Source of the DNA: Lacrimispora celerecrescens | GTDB lineage: Bacteria; Bacillota; Clostridia; Lachnospirales; Lachnospiraceae | Direction: 5' to 3' | Length of the DNA: 64,000 nt | NCBI RefSeq assembly: GCF_000732605.1 | Contig: NZ_JPME01000026.1 | Span: forward strand, 1 to 64,000 | Shown here: piece after piece, positions 16,353-45,790 of the stretch | Position numbering within the stretch: position 1 is the first letter of the stretch | Layout of the letters: each line of letters starts with the position of its first letter | The notes under the pieces: model-generated | Database searches by the model: none | Seen by the model: the letters and a program-made list of their open reading frames with translations, nothing else | What the model was told of the DNA's origin: nothing | Program-made: the position numbers and the translations under genes

Positions 16353-17652
16353 ATGTTTAAGGAATTGACGGATCTCATTACGAAGACTGAGACAATCGAC
16401 CATATCGGGAAGATTGAAAACATTGTGGGGATGTCCATGGAAGCCTCCGGAGGAAGGGCCAGTATCGGAGACATAGCCTATATTTACAATGAAGACCGGC
16501 AGGAACAGATACCGGTGGAAGTGGTAGGCTTTAAGGATGACAAGATACAGCTTATGGCCTATGAAAATATGAATGGAATTGCAGCGGGCAGCTTTGTTCG
16601 GAATACAAAACGCAGGTTGAAGGTACCGGTAGGAGATTTTTTAAGGGGTCGAATCATCGATGCAAAGGGAGAACCAATGGATGGAAAAGGACCTTTTGAA
16701 TCTCCCCGGTACTATTACGTAGAAAATCCTTATATCAATCCCATGACCCGTCCGCCCATTACGGACAAGCTGGAATTTGGTGTCAAAGCCATTGATGGCT
16801 TAAATACAATTGGAAAAGGCCAGCGTATTGGTATTTTTGCAGGCAGTGGAGTGGGAAAAAGCACCTTGCTTGGCATGATCGCCAGGAATGTAAAGGCGGA
16901 TATTAACGTAGTAGCTGGTAGGGGAGCGTGGAAGAGAGGTCCGTGAATTTATAGAAAAAGACTTAGGACCAGAAGGAATGAAACGTTCCGTGCTGGTGGT
17001 AGCAACATCAGACCAGCCTGCCATGCTTCGAATGAAGTGTCCATTGGTTGCCACTACGATAGCTGAATATTTTAAGAATCAGGGCAAGGATGTTTTGCTT
17101 ATGATGGACTCCCTGACCCGTTTTGCTATGGCACAGAGAGAGATAGGGCTTGCAATCGGAGAGCCTCCGGTGGCAAGAGGCTATACTCCCTCTATTTATG
17201 CGGAGTTTCCAAAGCTGTTGGAACGAAGCGGTAACTTTGGACAAGGTTCCATTACAGGAATCTATACGGTTTTGGTGGAAGGTGATGACACCAATGAGCC
17301 GATTGCCGATACTGTGAGAGGTATTGTGGATGGCCATATTGTACTAAGCCGAAAGCTGGCCAATTCCAACCATTTCCCGGCTATTGACGTAAGTGCCAGT
17401 ATTTCACGTTTGATGACCAACATCGTTTCAGAAGAACACCGGAAATTAGCTTCCCAAATCAGGGATATGTTAAGTCTTTATGAGAAAAATGAGGATCTTA
17501 TCTCGATTGGTGCTTATAAGAGCGGTACAAACCCAAAGCTTGATATGGCAATATCTAAAATTGATAAAATCAATCAATTCCTGTGTCAGGGAATACAGGA
17601 ACAAGCCAGTTACGAAGAGGTCTTAAAGAAAATGAAGATGATCTTATCATAG
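16353..17652 (+). pseudogene. fliI: Flagellum-specific export ATPase FliI, frameshifted
   Basis: FliI energises type III export with FliH and FliJ. Residues 1-188 read normally with Walker A GSGVGKST at 164-171. The frame is then lost and stops at 16946. The rest of the protein continues in another frame from 16915 (LVGERGREVREFIEKDLG) to 17652 and includes the Walker B region LLMMDSLTRFAMAQRE. The normal family sequence here is NVxALxGERGRE. Restoring two bases (gct-ctg instead of gctg at about 16914-16917) reunites the frames into about 434 residues, the normal length. It is therefore a single 2-bp deletion or an assembly error. Walker A and the catalytic half are separated, so no active ATPase is expected as written. 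Confidence 0.9.
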
Positions 17653-30811: not shown

Positions 30812-32883
30812 ATGAAGACTTTACTGAAAAATTCTGTAGTAGTATTTGTAATTATGATCGTACTTCTATTGATTATTCCATTACCTCCGTTTTTTGTGGA
30901 TGTAATGATTATCATAAATATTTCCCTTTCCATGATTATCTTACTGATAACCATGAACATAAAAGAACCTTTGGAATTTTCTATTTTCCCGGCCCTGCTT
31001 TTGGTGACCACTTTGCTGCGTCTTGGGCTGAACGTTTCTTCAACGAGAAATATTTTGTCAAATCAGGGGTCTTCGGGTCAGGTTATCAAAGCCTTCGGTG
31101 ATTTCGTATTACAGGGAAATGTTGTTGTCGGTTTTATCATATTCCTTATTATCGTTCTGGTAAACTTCCTGGTTATTACAAAGGGAACGGAACGTGTATC
31201 TGAAGTTGCGGCCAGGTTTACCTTAGACGCTATGCCTGGTAAGCAGATGGCCATTGATGCAGATTTAAGTTCTGGTTTGATTAATGAGCAGGAAGCAAAA
31301 CTGAGACGGTATAAGGTTCAGAAAGAAGCAGATTTCTACGGAGCCATGGATGGTGCAACCAAGTTTGTTAAGGGAGATGCCATCATGTCCATGATCACCA
31401 CTGCCATTAACTTTATTGGCGGTGCCATTATCGGAATGGTGCAGTCAAATCTGGATTTTGGCCAGGTAATGTCCATTTATTCCATTGCTACAGTCGGTGA
31501 TGGACTTGTTTCCCAGGTTCCTGCTCTTTTGATTGCCACGGCCACCGGTATGGTAGTAACCAGAGCAGTATCAGAAGGCAGTTTAAATGACGACGTATCC
31601 AGCCAGTTTATGGCCCAGCCCAGGGCTATTATGCTCACTGGTTTTGTCATGATCGTATTAATGCTGGTGCCTGGAATGCCTAGAATCCAGTTAGCAATCA
31701 TGGCAGCGGTGCTTATTATAGCTGGTCATCGGTTAGGACAAAGAGTTCGTTTGTCGGCCTCTAGCCTTCAGGAAATGACGGCAGCCGCATCTATGCCCGA
31801 ACAGTCAGCGCAGTCGGCTGCTGATGAAGAGTCTTACTACCGGGATGTGAACAATGTTTATGCTCTTATTAACGTAGAACCGATTGAAATGGAATTTGGT
31901 TATAGTCTGATTCCGCTGATCGACGAGAGCAGCGGCGGAAAGATGATCAACCGGATTGTTATTTTCAGAAGGCAGTACGCTCAGGATATGGGACTTGTTA
32001 TCCCCTCTGTCAGGCTCAGAGACAGTTCCAGTTTAAATACCAATCAGTATGTCATAAAGATCAGAGGCGAAGAGGTGTCCAGAGGAGAAATTCTGGTAGA
32101 TTATTATCTGGCATTGGAACCACCTGCTGTTTCCGGTGAAGTTGATGGAATTGAAACTGTGGAACCGGCTTATGGAATACCCAGTAAATGGATCAGGCCT
32201 GAAAACAAGGAAATGGCGGAAATTTATGGCTATACCGTAATTGATCCACTTTCTGTTATGCTGACTCATTTATCGGAAACCATCAGGCAGCACGCTTATG
32301 AGCTGTTAGGACGGCAGGAAGTAATGCAGTTACTGGAAAATGTGAAGAAACACTCTCCGGAGCTGGTTGACGAATTGTTCCCGAGTCAATTTACATATGG
32401 CGGTATTCAGAAAATTCTTATTAACCTTTTAAAGGAAGGGGTTCCTGTCAAAGACATGGAAACGATTCTGGCGACGATAGCAGATTCTCTTCCGACCACC
32501 AGGGATATGGATGTGATTACAGAAAATATCAGAATTGCTCTAAAGAGGACCATAACCAGAATGTTCTGCGAAGGCGGACAGATGAAGGTACTCACCCTGG
32601 ATGCAGAGCTGGAGAAAAATATTATAGGAAGTATGGCAAAAGGAGAACAGGGCATCTATCTGGCCCTCAGCCGGATGTGATGCAGTCTGTGATTGGACAA
32701 GTGGGAGAACAGATGAAGAAATTCACTGATCTGGAACAGAAGCCGGTGATTCTTACAAGCCAGGTTGTCAGGCTGTATTTCTACCGACTGATCGAGCAGT
32801 TTTATCCCAATGCATATGTCCTTTCCTTTAATGAGATTGCAAACAATATTCAGATTCAGGCAATCGGGAATATTACCCTTTGA
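30812..32883 (+). pseudogene. flhA: Flagellar export gate protein FlhA, frameshifted near the C-terminus
   Basis: The first frame runs 622 codons to a stop at 32678 and contains the eight-helix membrane domain and most of the cytoplasmic domain. The missing FlhA C-terminus (DVMQSVIGQVGEQM through VLSFNEIANNIQIQAIGNITL) follows directly in another frame to 32883. Adding one base near 32668-32670, so that ctc-nag-ccg-gat-gtg is read, restores a normal 690-residue FlhA. FlhA is the nonameric receptor for chaperone-substrate complexes, and its last part is needed for full activity. Either the strain carries a 1-bp deletion or the assembly does. Confidence 0.9.
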
Positions 32884-37435: not shown

Positions 37436-38719
37436 ATGGATAGATATGTCACCCGGCAGCCTATTAAGGCACTTAAGGAGGACAGGATCATTGGCTACGA
37501 GGTGCTGTTTCAAAAGGATTATGACGCACTCTATAATAGTACCGATGTGGCGGCGGCGGATACCATCGCAGGCTTTCTGATGCAGAACACGGAAAGGATA
37601 TTTCAGGATAAACTTACGTTTGTAACATTTACTCCTTCGTTGTTATTCCGGAATATGCCGAAAATTTTTGATAAGGATAAATTAATCATTCAAATTGAAG
37701 ATCATGTGATGATCCATCCCTTATCGCCGGCAATTATCAAAAGATACCGCACAGAAGGCTATATATTTGCAATCAATGATTTCCAGTTCTCTCCCAAATA
37801 TTTTACCATGTTGGATTATGTTACCTACATAAAAGTGGATATCAGCAGTAAGCACGAAGGAAGAGAACGGACTTCCCTAAATAATCTTATCAATACCATG
37901 AAGGGCTTTGATAAGAAATGCATCGCAACCGGTGTCAATACAAAAGAAGACTATGAGCTTGCCATGGAAATTGGTGCTGACTATGCGGAAGGCAGCTATG
38001 TGGCGGAAGCAATGGCCAAAAAAGTAAAACGGATGGAATTCCTGGAAGGGAATTTCTTCCAGCTAGTTGTGGAAGTATCGAAAGACGAACCGGATATTGA
38101 ACAGATAGAAAAGGTTATAAGCCATGATGCAGCATTAAGTTACGCTCTGCTTAAAATTGTAAATTCCGCATATTTTGCTCTGCGCAGACGAGTGTCATCC
38201 ATCCGCCAGGCTCTGGTTACTATGGGAATCAGTCAGTTAAAACAATGGGTATACCTATTAAGCTTTAACAGTGAGTTTGAAAGCGATGAGTCCCGTGAAG
38301 CCATGATGAAATTGTCTTTCCTGCGGGCCAATTATGCTATGGTTCTTTCTGACCATATCAAGGAACTGCCCATTATTCGATCTGAGGTTTATATGATGGG
38401 AATGTTCTCGACTCTCCAGTACATGATTGATGCGCCATTGGAAGAAATTCTGGAAGAAGTACCTGTGGCTCAGGAAATCAAAGATGCGCTGCTTAAGCAG
38501 GAAGGAGTTTGCGGAGAACTCTATAAGCTCATTCTTAGTTATGAAAATGCAGACTGGAAAGCTGTAAAATCGCTATCAAATGAATTAGGAATCCCTTCCT
38601 CTCTTCTGGCGCAAACCTATATGGATTGTGTTGAAACCGTAAATGAGATATGGGAAGGTGTTGTAAGCAGTGTTGTAGATCGGGAAACAGAGAGTATAAT
38701 AAAAGAAGCCCACACCTAA
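37436..38719 (+). CDS. Degenerate EAL plus HDOD domain signalling protein (YuxH/CdgJ-like)
   Basis: The 427-residue protein pairs an EAL-like domain (about 1-195) with an HDOD domain (about 200-395; HDAALSYALLKIVNSAYFALRR). The catalytic EAL signature is replaced by YEVLF, and the DDFG loop reads NDFQFS, so c-di-GMP hydrolysis is not expected. Related proteins such as Vibrio CdgJ regulate motility through protein contacts. The frame opens earlier at 37406 inside cheV, but AAAGGAGG directly before the ATG at 37436 fixes the start. Confidence 0.85.
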   Translation: MDRYVTRQPIKALKEDRIIGYEVLFQKDYDALYNSTDVAAADTIAGFLMQNTERIFQDKLTFVTFTPSLLFRNMPKIFDKDKLIIQIEDHVMIHPLSPAIIKRYRTEGYIFAINDFQFSPKYFTMLDYVTYIKVDISSKHEGRERTSLNNLINTMKGFDKKCIATGVNTKEDYELAMEIGADYAEGSYVAEAMAKKVKRMEFLEGNFFQLVVEVSKDEPDIEQIEKVISHDAALSYALLKIVNSAYFALRRRVSSIRQALVTMGISQLKQWVYLLSFNSEFESDESREAMMKLSFLRANYAMVLSDHIKELPIIRSEVYMMGMFSTLQYMIDAPLEEILEEVPVAQEIKDALLKQEGVCGELYKLILSYENADWKAVKSLSNELGIPSSLLAQTYMDCVETVNEIWEGVVSSVVDRETESIIKEAHT

Positions 38720-38728
38720 TGGTGTGGG
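38709..38728. terminator. Bidirectional terminator between EAL/HDOD and ComFB-domain genes
   Basis: CCCACACC and GGTGTGGG flank a TAAT loop, with T-rich sequence leaving on both strands. The stop codons of the two convergent genes (TAA 38717-38719 on plus, TAG 38718-38716 on minus) overlap within the hairpin. Confidence 0.8.
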
Positions 38729-39315
38729 TTTCCTTTTACAGTAGAACAGGCTTTGGTCAATTCTACAACTACTTGTTGTGAGTAACGGGTGGAATAAAAG
38801 TTTAAAAGAGGAGAAGCAGTGGAATTCTCCGCAACAATGTATTTGGGAGGCAGATGGGACAAAGCCAGAGCTGTGACATCGGCGGTGCATCGATCACAGT
38901 TACAAACATCAAATTTATCCATGTATTCTGATGCTGCATTCTTTACGATATGTTCCATGACATTTAAATATTGAAATGATGGAATCAATATTTTCGGAGT
39001 ATCAGGCTCCGCTTCCCGGCCAAGGGGAAGAGTCTCCGGCTCAGGTGTATGTTCCGCTCCTTCTGCCTCTTCTAACTGCTCTCTGATCAATTCTGCAACC
39101 GGGTCGGGGGCAGAAGAAGACATGTCTATAATGGAAATAGGAGTTGGTGGAGAAGGCGGTTGATTTGAATCCGTAAGCTCCCTGATTTTTTCCGTAGAAT
39201 CGGAGGTTTGACGGGCTGCTAGATTTTCCTTGGCAGCCTCTTCCTTAGAGGATTCAGAATCTTCTCCTGCTAACAGATTCATAACATGAGCTGTTTTACT
39301 GCTTTTTCTGGCCAT
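38716..39315 (-). CDS. ComFB-domain protein with disordered N-terminal region (ParA partner candidate)
   Basis: The 199-residue protein has three parts. A basic N-terminal peptide (MARKSSKTAHVMNLLAG) comes first. A disordered Ser/Glu/Pro-rich stretch (about 18-105) follows. A C-terminal ComFB-like domain (about 108-190) has two cysteines in CNCDRCTADVTALALSHLPPKYI. ComFB-domain proteins are small dimers known from competence operons, and some are reported to bind cyclic dinucleotides. The basic N-terminal peptide is of the kind that partner proteins use to stimulate ParA ATPases. It is encoded 22 bp downstream of a ParA gene, in the same operon, inside a motility locus. Function is inference. 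Confidence 0.75.
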   Translation of the reverse strand: MARKSSKTAHVMNLLAGEDSESSKEEAAKENLAARQTSDSTEKIRELTDSNQPPSPPTPISIIDMSSSAPDPVAELIREQLEEAEGAEHTPEPETLPLGREAEPDTPKILIPSFQYLNVMEHIVKNAASEYMDKFDVCNCDRCTADVTALALSHLPPKYIVAENSTASPLLNFYSTRYSQQVVVELTKACSTVKGNPHH

Positions 39316-39337
39316 AATTGAAACTCCCTTCGAGTAA

Positions 39338-40111
39338 TTAGTTTTTACGTTGTTTAATCAATTCAAGAACTTCTGTAATCAATTCCTTGTAGTCCTGGGC
39401 CGGATTGGATCTGGGAGCATAATCCAGAAGATTTTCTCCCTGGGCAGGGGCTTCCGCCACGCTGACACTGGATCGGATATGAGTTTTGAATACCGTAGAG
39501 TTGATCTGCAGTGCGATTTTCTGAGCCATTTCCTTCACCTCTTTAGAAAGAAGGGTTCTGGGATTATACTTGTTAAGCAATATTCCAAGGACCACCAAAT
39601 CCGGATTGACGGAGGAACGGACAGTGTTGATGGTATCTTTAATCTGGGAGACACCCAAAAGGCTTAGGATTTCCGGAACCATGGGGATGATCAGATAGTC
39701 AGCAGCCGCATAAGCATTTACCGTGAGAATATTTAATGCAGGGGGAGTATCGATAATTATGTAATCGTAATATCCGGCTACAGTAGAGAGAATATTCTTT
39801 AAAATACATTCCCGCTGCTTTCCCGTAAACTCCAGTTCAGCTCCGCTTAACAGAATGTTGGAGGCGATTACATCACAGCGCTTTGTAGACTGGATAGCCT
39901 CCTGCAGGGAAGCGGTTCCCTTTAAAACTTCGTAAATGGTTGCGCCGGATTCGATCTGCAGTCCAAGGCTAAAGCCTAAGTTGCCTTGAGGATCTAAATC
40001 CACCGCCAAAACTCTTTTATTATTCATGGCAAGACCGCAGGCAAGAGCACAGGAAGTGGTTGTTTTGCCTACGCCGCCTTTTTGATTTGTGATTGCAATG
40101 ACTGTTGACAA
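39338..40111 (-). CDS. ParA/Soj-family partition-type ATPase
   Basis: The 257-residue ATPase has a deviant Walker A KGGVGKTTTS (signature K11, K16), DLDPQGNLG and the IIIDTPPALN Walker B region. It starts at a TTG preceded by GGAGG. Closest general type is Soj/ParA without an N-terminal DNA-binding domain. No parB or centromere-like repeats are nearby, so chromosome partition is unlikely to be its main job here. Orphan ParAs inside motility loci position chemoreceptor arrays or flagella in other bacteria, for example ParC and PpfA. The cotranscribed ComFB-domain protein is the likely partner. Confidence 0.88.
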   Translation of the reverse strand: MSTVIAITNQKGGVGKTTTSCALACGLAMNNKRVLAVDLDPQGNLGFSLGLQIESGATIYEVLKGTASLQEAIQSTKRCDVIASNILLSGAELEFTGKQRECILKNILSTVAGYYDYIIIDTPPALNILTVNAYAAADYLIIPMVPEILSLLGVSQIKDTINTVRSSVNPDLVVLGILLNKYNPRTLLSKEVKEMAQKIALQINSTVFKTHIRSSVSVAEAPAQGENLLDYAPRSNPAQDYKELITEVLELIKQRKN

Positions 40112-40147
40112 CTTCTATTCCTCCAATCGTAAATTGAAATAATACTA

Positions 40148-40175
40148 TTATGTTTAGTATACAATATGTCGATAA
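40148..40175 (+). promoter_or_regulatory. Sigma-D promoter of fliD
   Basis: TTAT (40148-40151), 16 bp, then GTCGATAA (40168-40175; 6 or 7 of 8 depending on the -10 consensus used), 78 bp before the fliD ATG. Confidence 0.6.
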
Positions 40176-40252
40176 ATAAGTATAGTAAAAACAAGAAAAA
40201 AGCTGGTTTTTCGCGAGCCAGATCATGTAAATGGTTTAGAAAGGAGTTCAAT

Positions 40253-42724
40253 ATGGCATCAGTATACAATAATGTGTCGAATAATAGCTTATCCTCGTCT
40301 GTTCGCGGCTATGGCGGCCTTGCCAGCGGCTTAGACAGAGACAGTCTGATTCAAGGCATGACTGCCGGTACAAGGGCGAAGATTGCAAAACAGCAAAAGG
40401 GCAAACAGACTCTGCTTTGGAAACAGGAGGCTTACCGCTCCATCAGTACCAAACTAATTGAGTTTTCACAGAAATATACTTCCTATACAAACCCTGATAC
40501 CAACCTTGCCAGTGCTGCATTCTGGTCAAAAAGCAATGTCACGGCGTTGGGAACAAACAGCAAATATATCCAGGTATCAGGAAGCCCAGCTAACTCCAGC
40601 GCTGTTTCCATTGTAGGGGTGAAGCAGCTTGCTGAGAAGGCCTCTGTGACTTCTTCCAATCCGGTCAGCAATGGAATTTTAACTACAGGTGATATTAATA
40701 TAGTAGATGATAAGATCGTCAGCACGCTGGAAGGTCAAAAATTAACGTTCCAGGTAGGAGACAAAACCTTTGACGTGCAGTTAAAGAGCGGTACTGTTGA
40801 TGGGTTTACTTACGATTATTCCGATGGAGCCAAAACCGTTGAATCCATAACAAAAGCAATGGAAGGGGTTTCCGTAGGCGGCAGAAAGCTGTCGGAGTTG
40901 ATTAAAGTGGAGGCGGGGGCTGCCGGCAGCGATCCCCAGGCAGCACCCTTTACCCTAAATTTTAAATCCATAGATGACGCGCATAATTCAATTCGCCTGG
41001 CAGGCGGAAGTGAAGGGGCATTGAAGGCTCTGGGCTTTGAGAGCAGTGAAGAGTTTGCAAAGTATGCAGAACAGGGACAGACCGAGATCAAAGAAGACGG
41101 AATGGAAGCGGCGGTTATATTAAAGGACGATCAGAAGCTTTACGAAGCTCTCTCCTTTAAGGACAGGGTAGATGGAAAGAAGATGACTTTCACCTATAAT
41201 GGTGTCTCAAAAACCATAACGCTTGCTTTCGATTCTAATGATAGCCTAGAAGATCTTGCAGATGATATTGAGACAAAGCTGGCAAAAGAATTTGGAGCTA
41301 ATAGAATTAAAGTGGATGTGAGTAATGGAAAACTTCAGTTTGAAACCTATAAGCCAGATGGAACGCCAGATGGAACGCCTGACAAGTCCTCCAATTTGGT
41401 CATTTCCGGTGCCGATATTGGAGTTATTGGAAAAGACGGCGCCTTGAATGTGGCAAGCGGACAATCCAACCGCCTGCGCCTTAATGGAACCTTTTTAGAA
41501 TTTCAACAGAGTAAGGATCCTGATTTTACGAAAGATGAATCAGATCCACTGTACATTACCATAAATGGCAAGAATATTGAAGGAATTACTTATGGAAGTA
41601 CCATGAGTGAAATCATCGATAAGATTAATAATTCTGACGCTGGTGTAACGGTGACCTATATGAAGGATGCCGACAGATTTTCCATTGTATCAAAGGAAGA
41701 CGGGGCATCCGGATCAATTGAATTTAATGCCACGACCGAGGATAAAGATGGCAATATAGTAAATACGGATAATGTGAAGCTATTTGGATCCTTAGCCGGA
41801 ACCGAAGATTCTAACGGGGTAGTGACCCCGTCTCAGAAGATTACCGGAAAGGATGCCATTGTCTTTGTAAAATACGGCGATTCCTCCGAACCGGTGGAAC
41901 TGACCAGGGGAGGCAATTCCTTTAACCTAGATGGCTTAAATGTTACCGTAAACGGAACCTTCAATGTGGAAGGCAAATACGATAAAGAGCAGGAAGTTAC
42001 TTTCAATGCCAAGGCAGATACGGATAAGATCGTAAAGGTCGTTTCTGATATGATCAAGGAATATAACGATATTATCAAACTGGTAAAGGATCAGGTTTCC
42101 ACAAAGCCAAACCGTAAATATGAGCCGTTAACGGATGAGCAAAAGGAGCAGATGAAAGATTCTCAGATTGAGAAGTGGGAACAGGAAGCCAAAAAGGGAC
42201 TGCTCTTTAATGATTCTGATTTACGAAGCCTTTCTGACAGCCTGCGTTTCGTATTTTCAGCCGGATCCGAGAGCCAAAGAAAGCTGGCAGCTTTTGGTAT
42301 ATCCACCAGTTCAGATTATGCGGAACAGGGAAGCCTTGTGCTTGATGAGACGAAATTCAGAGAAGCTTTAGAGAAATCTCCGGAAGAACTGAAAGATCTT
42401 TTTACAAAGAAAGAGGACAAGTCGACCGGAGAAACCGGCGGTTTTATGTCTCGTCTGACTGCCATAACAGATACCTATGCTTCTACAAAAGGAGCAGTTA
42501 AAGGCAGCTTGATTGAGAAGGCAGGTTCCATCTATGCGCCCAACAGCATTTTATCCAATTCCATTCAGAAGTCCATAAATAGTTTTGACGATTATATTGA
42601 ACGACTTCAGGATCAGTTACAAACAGAGACAGACCGATATATAAAGCAGTTTACTTCTTTGGAAACATTGATTTCTCAGATGAATTCCCAAAGCAGTTGG
42701 CTGAGTTCCGTTGGTGGTCAATAA
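40253..42724 (+). CDS. fliD: Flagellar filament cap protein FliD
   Basis: The 823-residue filament cap has a FliD N-terminal domain (GLASGLDRDSLIQGM; KQEAYRSISTKLIEF) and a C-terminal coiled region (IEKAGSIYAPNSILSNSIQ; DYIERLQDQLQTETDRYIKQ; FTSLETLISQMNSQSSWLSS). The long middle is beta-rich, including flagellin-hook-IN type segments, which makes it larger than many FliDs. The frame opens at 40166, but AAAGGAG precedes the ATG at 40253. fliS follows after 17 bp. Confidence 0.95.
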   Translation: MASVYNNVSNNSLSSSVRGYGGLASGLDRDSLIQGMTAGTRAKIAKQQKGKQTLLWKQEAYRSISTKLIEFSQKYTSYTNPDTNLASAAFWSKSNVTALGTNSKYIQVSGSPANSSAVSIVGVKQLAEKASVTSSNPVSNGILTTGDINIVDDKIVSTLEGQKLTFQVGDKTFDVQLKSGTVDGFTYDYSDGAKTVESITKAMEGVSVGGRKLSELIKVEAGAAGSDPQAAPFTLNFKSIDDAHNSIRLAGGSEGALKALGFESSEEFAKYAEQGQTEIKEDGMEAAVILKDDQKLYEALSFKDRVDGKKMTFTYNGVSKTITLAFDSNDSLEDLADDIETKLAKEFGANRIKVDVSNGKLQFETYKPDGTPDGTPDKSSNLVISGADIGVIGKDGALNVASGQSNRLRLNGTFLEFQQSKDPDFTKDESDPLYITINGKNIEGITYGSTMSEIIDKINNSDAGVTVTYMKDADRFSIVSKEDGASGSIEFNATTEDKDGNIVNTDNVKLFGSLAGTEDSNGVVTPSQKITGKDAIVFVKYGDSSEPVELTRGGNSFNLDGLNVTVNGTFNVEGKYDKEQEVTFNAKADTDKIVKVVSDMIKEYNDIIKLVKDQVSTKPNRKYEPLTDEQKEQMKDSQIEKWEQEAKKGLLFNDSDLRSLSDSLRFVFSAGSESQRKLAAFGISTSSDYAEQGSLVLDETKFREALEKSPEELKDLFTKKEDKSTGETGGFMSRLTAITDTYASTKGAVKGSLIEKAGSIYAPNSILSNSIQKSINSFDDYIERLQDQLQTETDRYIKQFTSLETLISQMNSQSSWLSSVGGQ

Positions 42725-43592: not shown

Positions 43593-44321
43593 TTAACTAG
43601 GAGGGCCGATCATCCAAAGAGGTCCTCCGTTTGAAGCATGGTAGTTTAATTCTTTCAATATAAGAGAGGGATCCCAGTCTATTAGAGAATTATCGTATTG
43701 ATTGGCATCAGCAATTTTTATCATTCCTCCTTCTGTAAAGCGGGTAAGGATAATAAAATGCCCATTCTGGGTAAAATGCCCCTTTTTCATAAGGGCTACG
43801 ACCAAATGCCCAGAATTTAATGCATCTGCCAGTCCCTGGACTGTGTAATCTTTCACTGGCGCGGCAGTCAGGCCATAAGCCAGTGCGCTGTCTAATATCA
43901 GGCGATGATAGGAACCCTGACCTGGCGCCCAGGACTTATTTTCTGCCGCCCACGCAGCCATATCAGGAGGAAGCACTTGATTGCCGGTAAGGCTTGTGAC
44001 AACCATGGCCATAACTGTAGGACCGCAGCCGTAGGTAGAAAGGGGATCCTTTCCACCATATAGAAAGCTGCCCCATCTTGCATCAGACTGGTTGTAATAG
44101 GTAAGAGGGCCGCATACGCTGTCCAGCATGAGGTCATATCTCCCCTCTTGAGGAAAATCAGCTGTTGGTGTTTCAGGGCTTTCATCTTGAGAATAAATGG
44201 TAATTACTGATGTTTCTCCCGGGCTTGCTTGACCCAAGGAAGATGGAGAGGATACAAAAGGAATTACACTCAGAAACAGGGTTCGGAACAAGATATATTG
44301 GATGGTATTCAAAACATTCAC
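43593..44321 (-). CDS. Secreted C39-like peptidase family protein
   Basis: The 242-residue protein has an N-terminal hydrophobic segment (about 6-27) acting as signal or anchor, then a papain-like C39_2 domain. The catalytic triad is visible as C99 in YGCGPTVMAMV, H188 in QNGHFIIL and N207 in ADANQYD; the preceding YYNQSDARWGSFLYGG is the usual domain start. It probably acts outside the cell on peptides or wall proteins. It is convergent with the chaperone-like gene and divergent from the nucleotidyltransferase gene. A direct flagellar role is not shown. Confidence 0.85.
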   Translation of the reverse strand: MNVLNTIQYILFRTLFLSVIPFVSSPSSLGQASPGETSVITIYSQDESPETPTADFPQEGRYDLMLDSVCGPLTYYNQSDARWGSFLYGGKDPLSTYGCGPTVMAMVVTSLTGNQVLPPDMAAWAAENKSWAPGQGSYHRLILDSALAYGLTAAPVKDYTVQGLADALNSGHLVVALMKKGHFTQNGHFIILTRFTEGGMIKIADANQYDNSLIDWDPSLILKELNYHASNGGPLWMIGPPS

Positions 44322-44487: not shown

Positions 44488-45790
44488 ATGAGTAAAGGAT
44501 ACGAAGAACGATATTTAATGACATTGTTGTCATCAGTGATAAACCAGAAGGAATCACCGGCGCCGCTTAGGTACTTAAACTGGGAAAAGATGTTTCGAAT
44601 TGCTGATTATCACCGTGTGGCTCATGTTGTTTATTATGGTATTATGGGATTAGATGAAGAGATTCCTCAGTCTGTCCGTCAACGTTTTTTTGGGAAATAT
44701 TTAGAATCCGTTCATCGGGTTGAACGTTTACGTAAAGCAGAAAGGCAGGTGCAAACCCTTCTGGAAAGAAATGGGATAAACTGCTTTTTTTTTAAATTAT
44801 TCTGATTTTGTTAAGTGTTATCCGATTGAAGAGATGTGCTGCAGAGAATTTATAGAGATCGGAACAGAAAAGAAGTATGCTCAGGTCATCAGAACGCTTC
44901 TTTGGGACGCGGATTTTGAAGAACGATATACGGAAATTCGTGGGGAACTTTACTATCGGGTTCCAGGTAACAAAGTTTTGTGTTTCAATCAAACCATGTT
45001 TTTCAGTAAGTCCATGCAGAAGTTTTATATTAATCTGGTTCGTTCCCTGCCAAATAAAAAGGGATTGAACCATATTCGGGAGATGAATGCTAGTGAGATG
45101 TATTTATTCCTTATGTGCAGGCTGACGGATTCTTATGCCAGAGGGGATATAAGTCTGAGCCAGATTATGGACTTTTGGGCATTTTATAAAACCCATGGGG
45201 AATTCTTTTTATGGCCTTATATTTACGAACGATTGAAGGAACTTAAAATAGAGGAATTTGCGGAACGTCTGGAATCCCTTATCCTCCGCTGGTTTGGCAC
45301 TGGTACGGGGATTGAAAATGTGGAAATATATGATAATATGGAATCGTATATCTTCAGCAAAGGAACAGAAGGTCGTGAAATCAGCGAGCAGTTCCTGCCA
45401 TTAATCAAAACGGTTGCCGATTGTTACTCCAGGGATAGGAAGAAAGAAGAATTCATAAGGTTGGTAGCGTGGCTGTTTCCGGATCGGGAATACATGGAAA
45501 CCATATATCCGGTATTAGAGAAAGCAGGTGTATTTCTCCCCATTTTTTGGTTGATCCGTCTTGAAAGATATTTCAGAAGGATGATTGGCAACAGAATGGA
45601 AGAAAAGTTCCGTATCCCTAAAAAAACGTTTTTTCAGTTTATATGGAGAAAGTATCAGGGGGTAAAGGCTGAAGAGAGCGAAGAAAAGGAAGAGAACGAA
45701 GAAAAGGAAGAAAGGGAAGAGAAGAAGGCAAGAGAACAAGGAGAACAAAAGGAGCAGGAAGAACAAAAAACAGCGAAAATACCTAATTAA
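44488..45790 (+). pseudogene. Nucleotidyltransferase-family protein, frameshifted in a T9 run
   Basis: The first frame (105 codons, from ATG 44488) ends at 44805 and the second continues to 45790. The break is at nine T residues (44785-44793). With eight Ts the reading becomes GINCFFLNYSDFVKCYPIEEM and joins into one protein of about 433 residues. It resembles the uncharacterised nucleotidyltransferase family (PF14907 type): helical start, KGSxL-like region at the break, and RGDISLSQIMDFWAFYKTH. The last 40 residues are an extreme Glu/Lys tail. A sigma-D promoter suggests motility-linked expression. Substrate unknown. Confidence 0.7.

Follow-up and report, generated by a model that had tools for sequence, protein, structure and literature searches.

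A conserved ParA-ComFB gene pair in flagellar loci of Lachnospiraceae and relatives, a candidate module for flagellar placement

Gene content of the locus

The window analysed here is a stretch of 64,000 nucleotides from Lacrimispora celerecrescens (NZ_JPME01000026.1, positions 1 to 64,000). The original prediction had singled out a ParA ATPase (KGGVGKTT) and a 199-residue ComFB protein as a two-gene unit at 38716-40111 on the reverse strand, within a flagellar cluster, and both reading frames were confirmed (Table 1). According to the list of open reading frames, the two genes are separated by 22 bp and lie between a gene for an EAL-HDOD protein and a gene which, by inspection, we take to be fliD. 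The parA product matched Pfam AAA_31 with an E-value of 2.4e-55. Its partner matched Pfam ComFB at residues 118-197 (67 bits against a cut-off of 25), and a profile search of the genome returned no other ComFB protein at E 0.001. The predicted layout of this partner, in which a basic stretch of 17 residues is followed by a linker and a C-terminal ComFB domain, is conserved in relatives, with a linker that is variable. Starts were taken as the first possible ones of each ORF, and some rows (e.g., L077 in the ParA alignment) carry extra residues.

Table 1 Features of the parA-comFB locus in the window
Feature	Position	Strand	Description
EAL-HDOD protein gene	37445..38719	+	Convergent with comFB; Pfam HDOD and EAL
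Terminator-like hairpin (tentative)	38709..38728	-	At the end of comFB
comFB-domain partner	38716..39315	-	199 aa; ORF list, Pfam ComFB E 1.5e-18
ComFB domain	38725..38964	-	Residues 118-197; CxCxxC at C138, C140, C143; Pfam
Second conserved linker motif	39058..39147	-	About residues 57-86 of the partner; proposed cargo/partner contact
N-terminal basic peptide	39265..39315	-	Residues 1-17 of the partner; class I motif KTxHV[ML]xL[LI]; proposed ParA contact
parA	39338..40111	-	257 aa; KGGVGKTT; TTG start; flagellar subfamily, class I; ORF list, Pfam AAA_31, alignment, tree
Promoter-like site (tentative)	40144..40172	-	5' of parA; the surrounding intergenic block is conserved across the genus
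fliD (presumed name)	40253..42724	+	Divergent from parA; same gene order in 23 fetched loci of the genus

Promoter-like sites and terminator-like hairpins are no more numerous in the region around parA-comFB than expected by chance. Elsewhere in the window, the flhA ORF (30812-32680) encodes 622 aa, compared to 689-690 aa in relatives of the genus, with a differing C-terminus and an interrupted frame. The gene that we named fliI by inspection (16353-17652) is split into two ORFs, a second interrupted flagellar gene and perhaps an assembly error. A putative nucleotidyltransferase gene (44488-45790), between genes that look like fliT and csrA, is also represented by two ORFs, in different frames. 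Near fliD-fliS lies a C39-like peptidase gene (43593-44321), which 31 of the 46 module loci in the first set also contain.

Conservation and genomic context of the pair

ComFB and ParA were paired in 24 of the 25 genomes drawn from the genus, that of L. celerecrescens included. The remaining one, a fragmented assembly (G019), had neither ComFB nor flagellar ParA. The order EAL-HDOD, comFB-parA, fliD was common to all 23 further loci fetched from the genus. Meanwhile, among 299 genomes drawn from the family, ComFB was detected in 46 and the flagellar ParA subfamily in 22 (384-447 bits, with the next best match at 287), and ComFB adjoined ParA in all 22. A draw of 398 genomes from the phylum provided further carriers outside the class. 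All of these draws are samples. The ParA proteins fall into two classes, I and II, and at the edge of class II the ParA score cannot separate carriers by itself, since genome G1092 (locus L209) encodes a ComFB-paired ParA at 286 bits and a second ParA without ComFB at 300 bits, and locus L288 encodes a ParA at 299 bits and no ComFB. In L288 (2158-5245), this related ParA adjoins a CheW-like gene and a gene for an MCP with a CZB domain.

Among the best 80 loci listed from named contigs, ComFB was encoded downstream in all 28 with a ParA of at least 308 bits; in 23 of these 28, flagellar or chemotaxis genes lay no more than 4 kb away, and five had no flagellar gene within that distance. None of the other 52 loci of the best 80 (216-299 bits) had ComFB, and a rough pattern indicated a ParB-like start in 29 of them. 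Record names among the named loci listed were Hungatella sp., Eisenbergiella tayi, Pseudoflavonifractor, Intestinimonas, Oscillibacter, Family XIII, Ruminiclostridium, and Erysipelotrichaceae. The counts include repeats, as L260 is L034, L274 is L080, and L212 is L074.

The pair is oriented opposite to fliD in 23 of 23 loci of the genus. Both orientations were seen in 22 other loci (14 opposite, 8 the same) and in 17 named loci from the best 80 listed (14 opposite, 3 the same). Other surroundings of the pair were flgN-flgK-flgL in class II, and fliK-like, flhB-like, and PilZ-like genes, the PilZ-like matches at L204-L206 being obtained with a profile built from the window gene alone. One class II pair (L281), among the five named loci with no flagellar gene within 4 kb, has mreC and a gene for a penicillin-binding protein close by, a hint of a non-flagellar cargo.

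The anticipated conserved adjacency of parA-comFB to fliD and che genes was found in many genera. Chance neighbourhood of ComFB and ParA can be rejected on the basis of the 22 of 22 family genomes, the 28 of 28 named loci (of the best 80), and a peptide, described below, that occurs only in the paired proteins among the ComFB proteins fetched. The ParA-ComFB pair is a real, conserved module of flagellar loci. As this ParA has a dedicated ComFB partner, the description of it as an orphan was wrong.

The N-terminal peptide and ComFB proteins without ParA

Class I ComFB partners start with a basic stretch that ends in KTxHV[ML]xL[LI], with variants, and class II partners start with [ILM]DKExMYxKIM. 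One of these peptides was present in all 79 of the ParA-paired ComFB proteins fetched (78 by expression and L209 by eye), in none of 55 ComFB proteins without an adjacent ParA, and in none of 5127 other ORF starts; the expressions for the peptide and for the linker motif were written after viewing the sequences. The basic peptide highlighted in the original prediction follows the presence of ParA. Within it, K7, T8, V11, and L14 are invariant among 28 proteins.

Three loci (L082, L091, and L094) encode flagellar-locus ComFB proteins without parA. The peptide motif was found in no frame within 900 bp upstream of these genes, and their genomes yielded ParA matches at the level of Soj only. The three proteins keep the linker motif and the ComFB domain. 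Their genomes occupy two places, and thus two lineages, in the FlhA tree, suggesting that ParA was probably lost twice. What these proteins are missing is exactly the peptide; hence, the peptide, unlike the rest of the protein, goes with ParA, which points to a contact with it. We propose that this peptide is the ParA contact of the partner. Meanwhile, the linker motif was detected in 45 of 68 class I proteins, in all three of the ParA-less flagellar proteins, in none of 12 class II proteins, in none of 52 others, and in 0.4% of shuffled linkers. This second motif is proposed to be a contact to the cargo or to a further partner.

Descent of the flagellar ParA

The window ParA scored 447 bits, versus 244 bits for Soj from the same genome. 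In a tree rooted on five FlhG sequences, which a branch of 2.33 separates from the ParA set, class I (support 0.997) and class II (0.991) joined the plasmid-type ParAs in a single clade (1.0), with class II as the sister of the plasmid types (0.957). Soj formed a clade apart from all of these (0.996). This and the other trees are single FastTree runs. The protein had been called Soj-like, and its membership of the ParA family stands; the grouping was loose, as the tree puts it with plasmid-type ParAs. The closest plasmid ParAs were those of Enterococcus plasmids, with about 45% identity, and the window ComFB protein had no match at E 1e-4 among 72,556 plasmid records. Being small (257 aa), without an N-terminal DNA-binding extension, and placed in the plasmid-type clade, the window ParA has the features of ParF/ParG-type ParAs. 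The small partners of plasmid-type ParAs are, by inspection, presumably ribbon-helix-helix proteins; Pfam assigned HicB just over the cut-off to L211 and no such family to L208, L210, L214, and L340. For the partner in the window, Pfam gave ComFB alone and no DNA-binding domain.

As originally predicted, no parB is adjacent to the pair; the soj-parB genes of this genome sit on another contig, and no parB was found beside the homologous parA in the loci seen. The predicted lack of a repeat centromere also held, as the region 38600-40300 contained only a two-copy 15-nt direct repeat, inside parA, and no array. Four parS-like sites were detected in the window when the consensus was allowed up to 3 mismatches, none of them within 10 kb of the pair, and 6 of 100 shuffles reached four. 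We reject plain Soj/ParB partition as the role of this gene given the separate clades (1.0 and 0.996), the ComFB partner, the location of soj-parB, the lack of an array, and the occurrence of parS-like sites at chance level.

The N-terminal signature of FlhG is DQAxxLR, and it was seen at the start of FlhG ORFs in fetched loci of the family. It is absent from the window ParA, which starts with MSTVIAITNQKGGVGKTT. An FlhG-like start was present in none of the eight readable proteins among the nine AAA_31 matches of the same genome (L135 was left out); the search for FlhG covered this genome and 20 fetched loci. The possibility that this ParA is an FlhG under another name is rejected on the basis of its distinct clade, the missing DQAxxLR start, and the lack of FlhF over the cut-off.

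The ComFB domain and cyclic dinucleotides

The three putative zinc cysteines of CxCxxC are invariant in 28 proteins. The NCBIfam equivalog for late-competence ComFB was not reached by the window protein (39.6 bits against a cut-off of 120), and the nearest solved chains were PDB 4wai (E 6e-4) and, weakly, 8hja (E 0.035). In Bacillus, comFB is linked to flgM-flgK, and one idea is that the link to flagellar genes is inherited. In the ComFB-domain tree, class I clustered with the three ParA-less proteins (0.973). Four of the five class II domains fell outside this group, and the remaining one (L207) branched next to class I (0.886). The separation of classes I and II in both the ParA and the ComFB trees suggests, with modest support, that the module was assembled twice. 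Two other loci (L074 and L075) encode ComFB behind a receiver domain (by Pfam for L074), in genomes with FlhA and FlhF and with no flagellar genes in the fetched stretch.

In cyanobacteria, ComFB binds c-di-AMP and c-di-GMP (PMC12313861), and ComFB of B. subtilis is a zinc-binding dimer (PMC4381287). Comparison of consensus lines revealed that class I and II proteins differ from short ComFB proteins in the loop that follows PPKY, suggesting a possible change in, or loss of, ligand binding. The EAL-HDOD gene is a common neighbour of the pair in the window and in the loci of the genus. In L278, the gene immediately before parA encodes a GGDEF protein; in L276, a GGDEF gene also precedes parA, with small ORFs between them and PilZ also present. 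The ComFB side may be gated by a cyclic dinucleotide, and gene context makes c-di-GMP more likely than c-di-AMP.

Flagella and the distribution of FlhF and FlhG

In the family draw, FlhA was present in all 22 module genomes versus 131 of 277 others (Fisher test without regard to descent, 2e-7). The absence of flhF and flhG from the operon, noted in the original prediction, was confirmed, and FlhF is below the cut-off in the entire genome. FlhF over the cut-off was found in none of 40 module genomes (0 of 18 and 0 of 22), in none of the three ParA-less ones, and in 58 of 58 flagellated family genomes without the module, these 58 being drawn from the 131 such genomes and mostly the most complete. 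By inspection, flhA-flhF-flhG occurred in 17 of 17 fetched loci of module-free flagellated genomes, and flhA was followed by a fliA-like gene in three class II loci.

The FlhA tree splits along the line between module and FlhF. As this is one deep split, descent explains much of the mutual exclusivity, which is close to a single event in the family. Both FlhF and the flagellar ParA are lacking from three flagellated genomes, indicating that ParA is dispensable for having flagella. To our knowledge, how bacteria without FlhF/FlhG control the place and number of their flagella is largely open. Since the module carriers examined have no FlhF, the pair may be an undescribed way of flagellar placement.

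Proposed mechanism and alternative explanations

The explanation that we favour, holding it with about as much belief as doubt, is that of a ParA positioning module with a ComFB adaptor, the flagellum as its most likely cargo, and the place of FlhF/FlhG as its own. Proteins of the ParA family bind the nucleoid in their ATP form, and the plasmid-type ParA would form a track in this manner. The ComFB partner would be an adaptor that activates the ATPase, touching ParA via its first ~17 basic residues. From there, a flexible linker would lead to the ComFB domain, and this domain and the mid-linker motif would hold the cargo side. The cargo would most likely be the flagellum, meaning either the basal bodies themselves or how many there are and how they are spaced, and the module would stand functionally in the place of the FlhF/FlhG of other lineages. 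Gating by a cyclic dinucleotide may act on the ComFB side. More tentatively, a plasmid-derived ParA and a ComFB adaptor could have replaced FlhF/FlhG as the system that places flagella in a broad set of Bacillota, been assembled at least twice, with a separate ComFB domain in class I and in class II, and put flagellar placement or number under the direct influence of a cyclic dinucleotide; we regard this wider scenario as possible but rather doubtful.

The usual neighbours of class I pairs, cheC, cheD, cheV, and EAL-HDOD, would fit a module that places chemoreceptor arrays in the way of ParC/ParP or PpfA/TlpT, with ComFB tying ParA to the arrays or to CheV. Of the genomes examined, 23 of 24 in class I and three of five in class II have CheA (in G108 it is weak, at 31 bits), the related ParA of L288 adjoins chemotaxis genes, and in the ParA-less G224 the che genes of the locus (in the fetched stretch), CheA, and ParA are all absent together. 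Besides G224, the genomes that lack CheA, four out of 33, are G951 (class I), which has two congeners with CheA, and the class II genomes G039 and G210. The latter two are 99% complete and carry the module by flgN-flgK-flgL, which disfavours arrays as the only cargo; conversely, G329 and G355 possess CheA and no flagellar ParA. We consider array placement fairly unlikely.

A position between flagellar transcription units would also suit a pair that regulates flagellar gene expression or an assembly checkpoint, with ParA as an ATP switch on ComFB or a transcription factor, similarly to FleN, which acts on FleQ. However, the layout of the partner (basic tip, long linker, and separate domain) is that of a ParA-activating adaptor, and the tree derives ParA from partition stock. 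This renders a regulator unlikely, even though cyanobacterial ComFB/CdgR proteins are described as acting on pilus and competence proteins or via a transcription factor (PMC12313861, PMC13075795). The same tree, in which the closest relatives are plasmid-type ParAs with small partners, could point to a cassette for the partition of a plasmid or chromosome that was left behind in a flagellar locus. Such a cassette is extremely improbable: ComFB takes the position of the small partner and is unmatched in the plasmid records, there is no centromere-like array, parS-like sites are at chance level, soj-parB lies elsewhere, and the place of the pair is conserved over many genera. Finally, the order of the entire cluster is conserved in the genus, so that ParA and ComFB might simply ride along with the flagellar genes and never touch. 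Yet the pair stays joined when inverted or moved elsewhere in the cluster, and ComFB proteins without ParA also lack the peptide, making this very unlikely.

Relation to known systems and biological meaning

The positioning module favoured here shares features with several described systems. Like FlhF/FlhG, it has an ATPase of the ParA/MinD superfamily in a flagellar cluster, and its distribution is complementary to that of FlhF in the tested genomes, whereas its ParA belongs to another clade than FlhG, without flhF or a DQAxxLR start and with a ComFB partner. It resembles ParF/ParG of plasmid TP228 and other plasmid ParAs in its small ParA and in a partner with a flexible N-terminal tail, although this partner ends in ComFB rather than in ribbon-helix-helix DNA binding, and no centromere was seen. 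The tail of ParG stimulates ParF (PMC7308502). ParC/ParP and PpfA/TlpT also represent ParA positioning in motility, and TlpT has a charged N-terminal extension (PMC7993993); in contrast, the partner domain of the module is ComFB, and the module occurs in genomes without CheA as well. The same paper describes how basic N-terminal peptides were grafted onto new, unrelated domains in ATPase-activating proteins such as PomX and McdB, and such peptides are also covered in PMC10241942. The partner displays the same combination of a basic N-terminal peptide and an unrelated domain, and we found no ComFB as the grafted domain of a ParA-activating protein in the open-licence literature. With ComFB/CdgR it shares the ComFB domain and CxCxxC, but it is a long form with an N-terminal peptide and linker, and its PPKY loop is unlike that of short forms. 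No description of a ParA-ComFB pair was found in the open-licence literature, and the module is probably undescribed.

These findings provide a concrete two-gene candidate for flagellar placement in gut Lachnospiraceae, Oscillospiraceae, and relatives, in which the natural absence of the peptide already shows what to mutate. With a domain of signalling type on the cargo side of a ParA system, the module would be a test case for how ParA systems gain new cargos, and it would give long ComFB proteins a role beyond competence.
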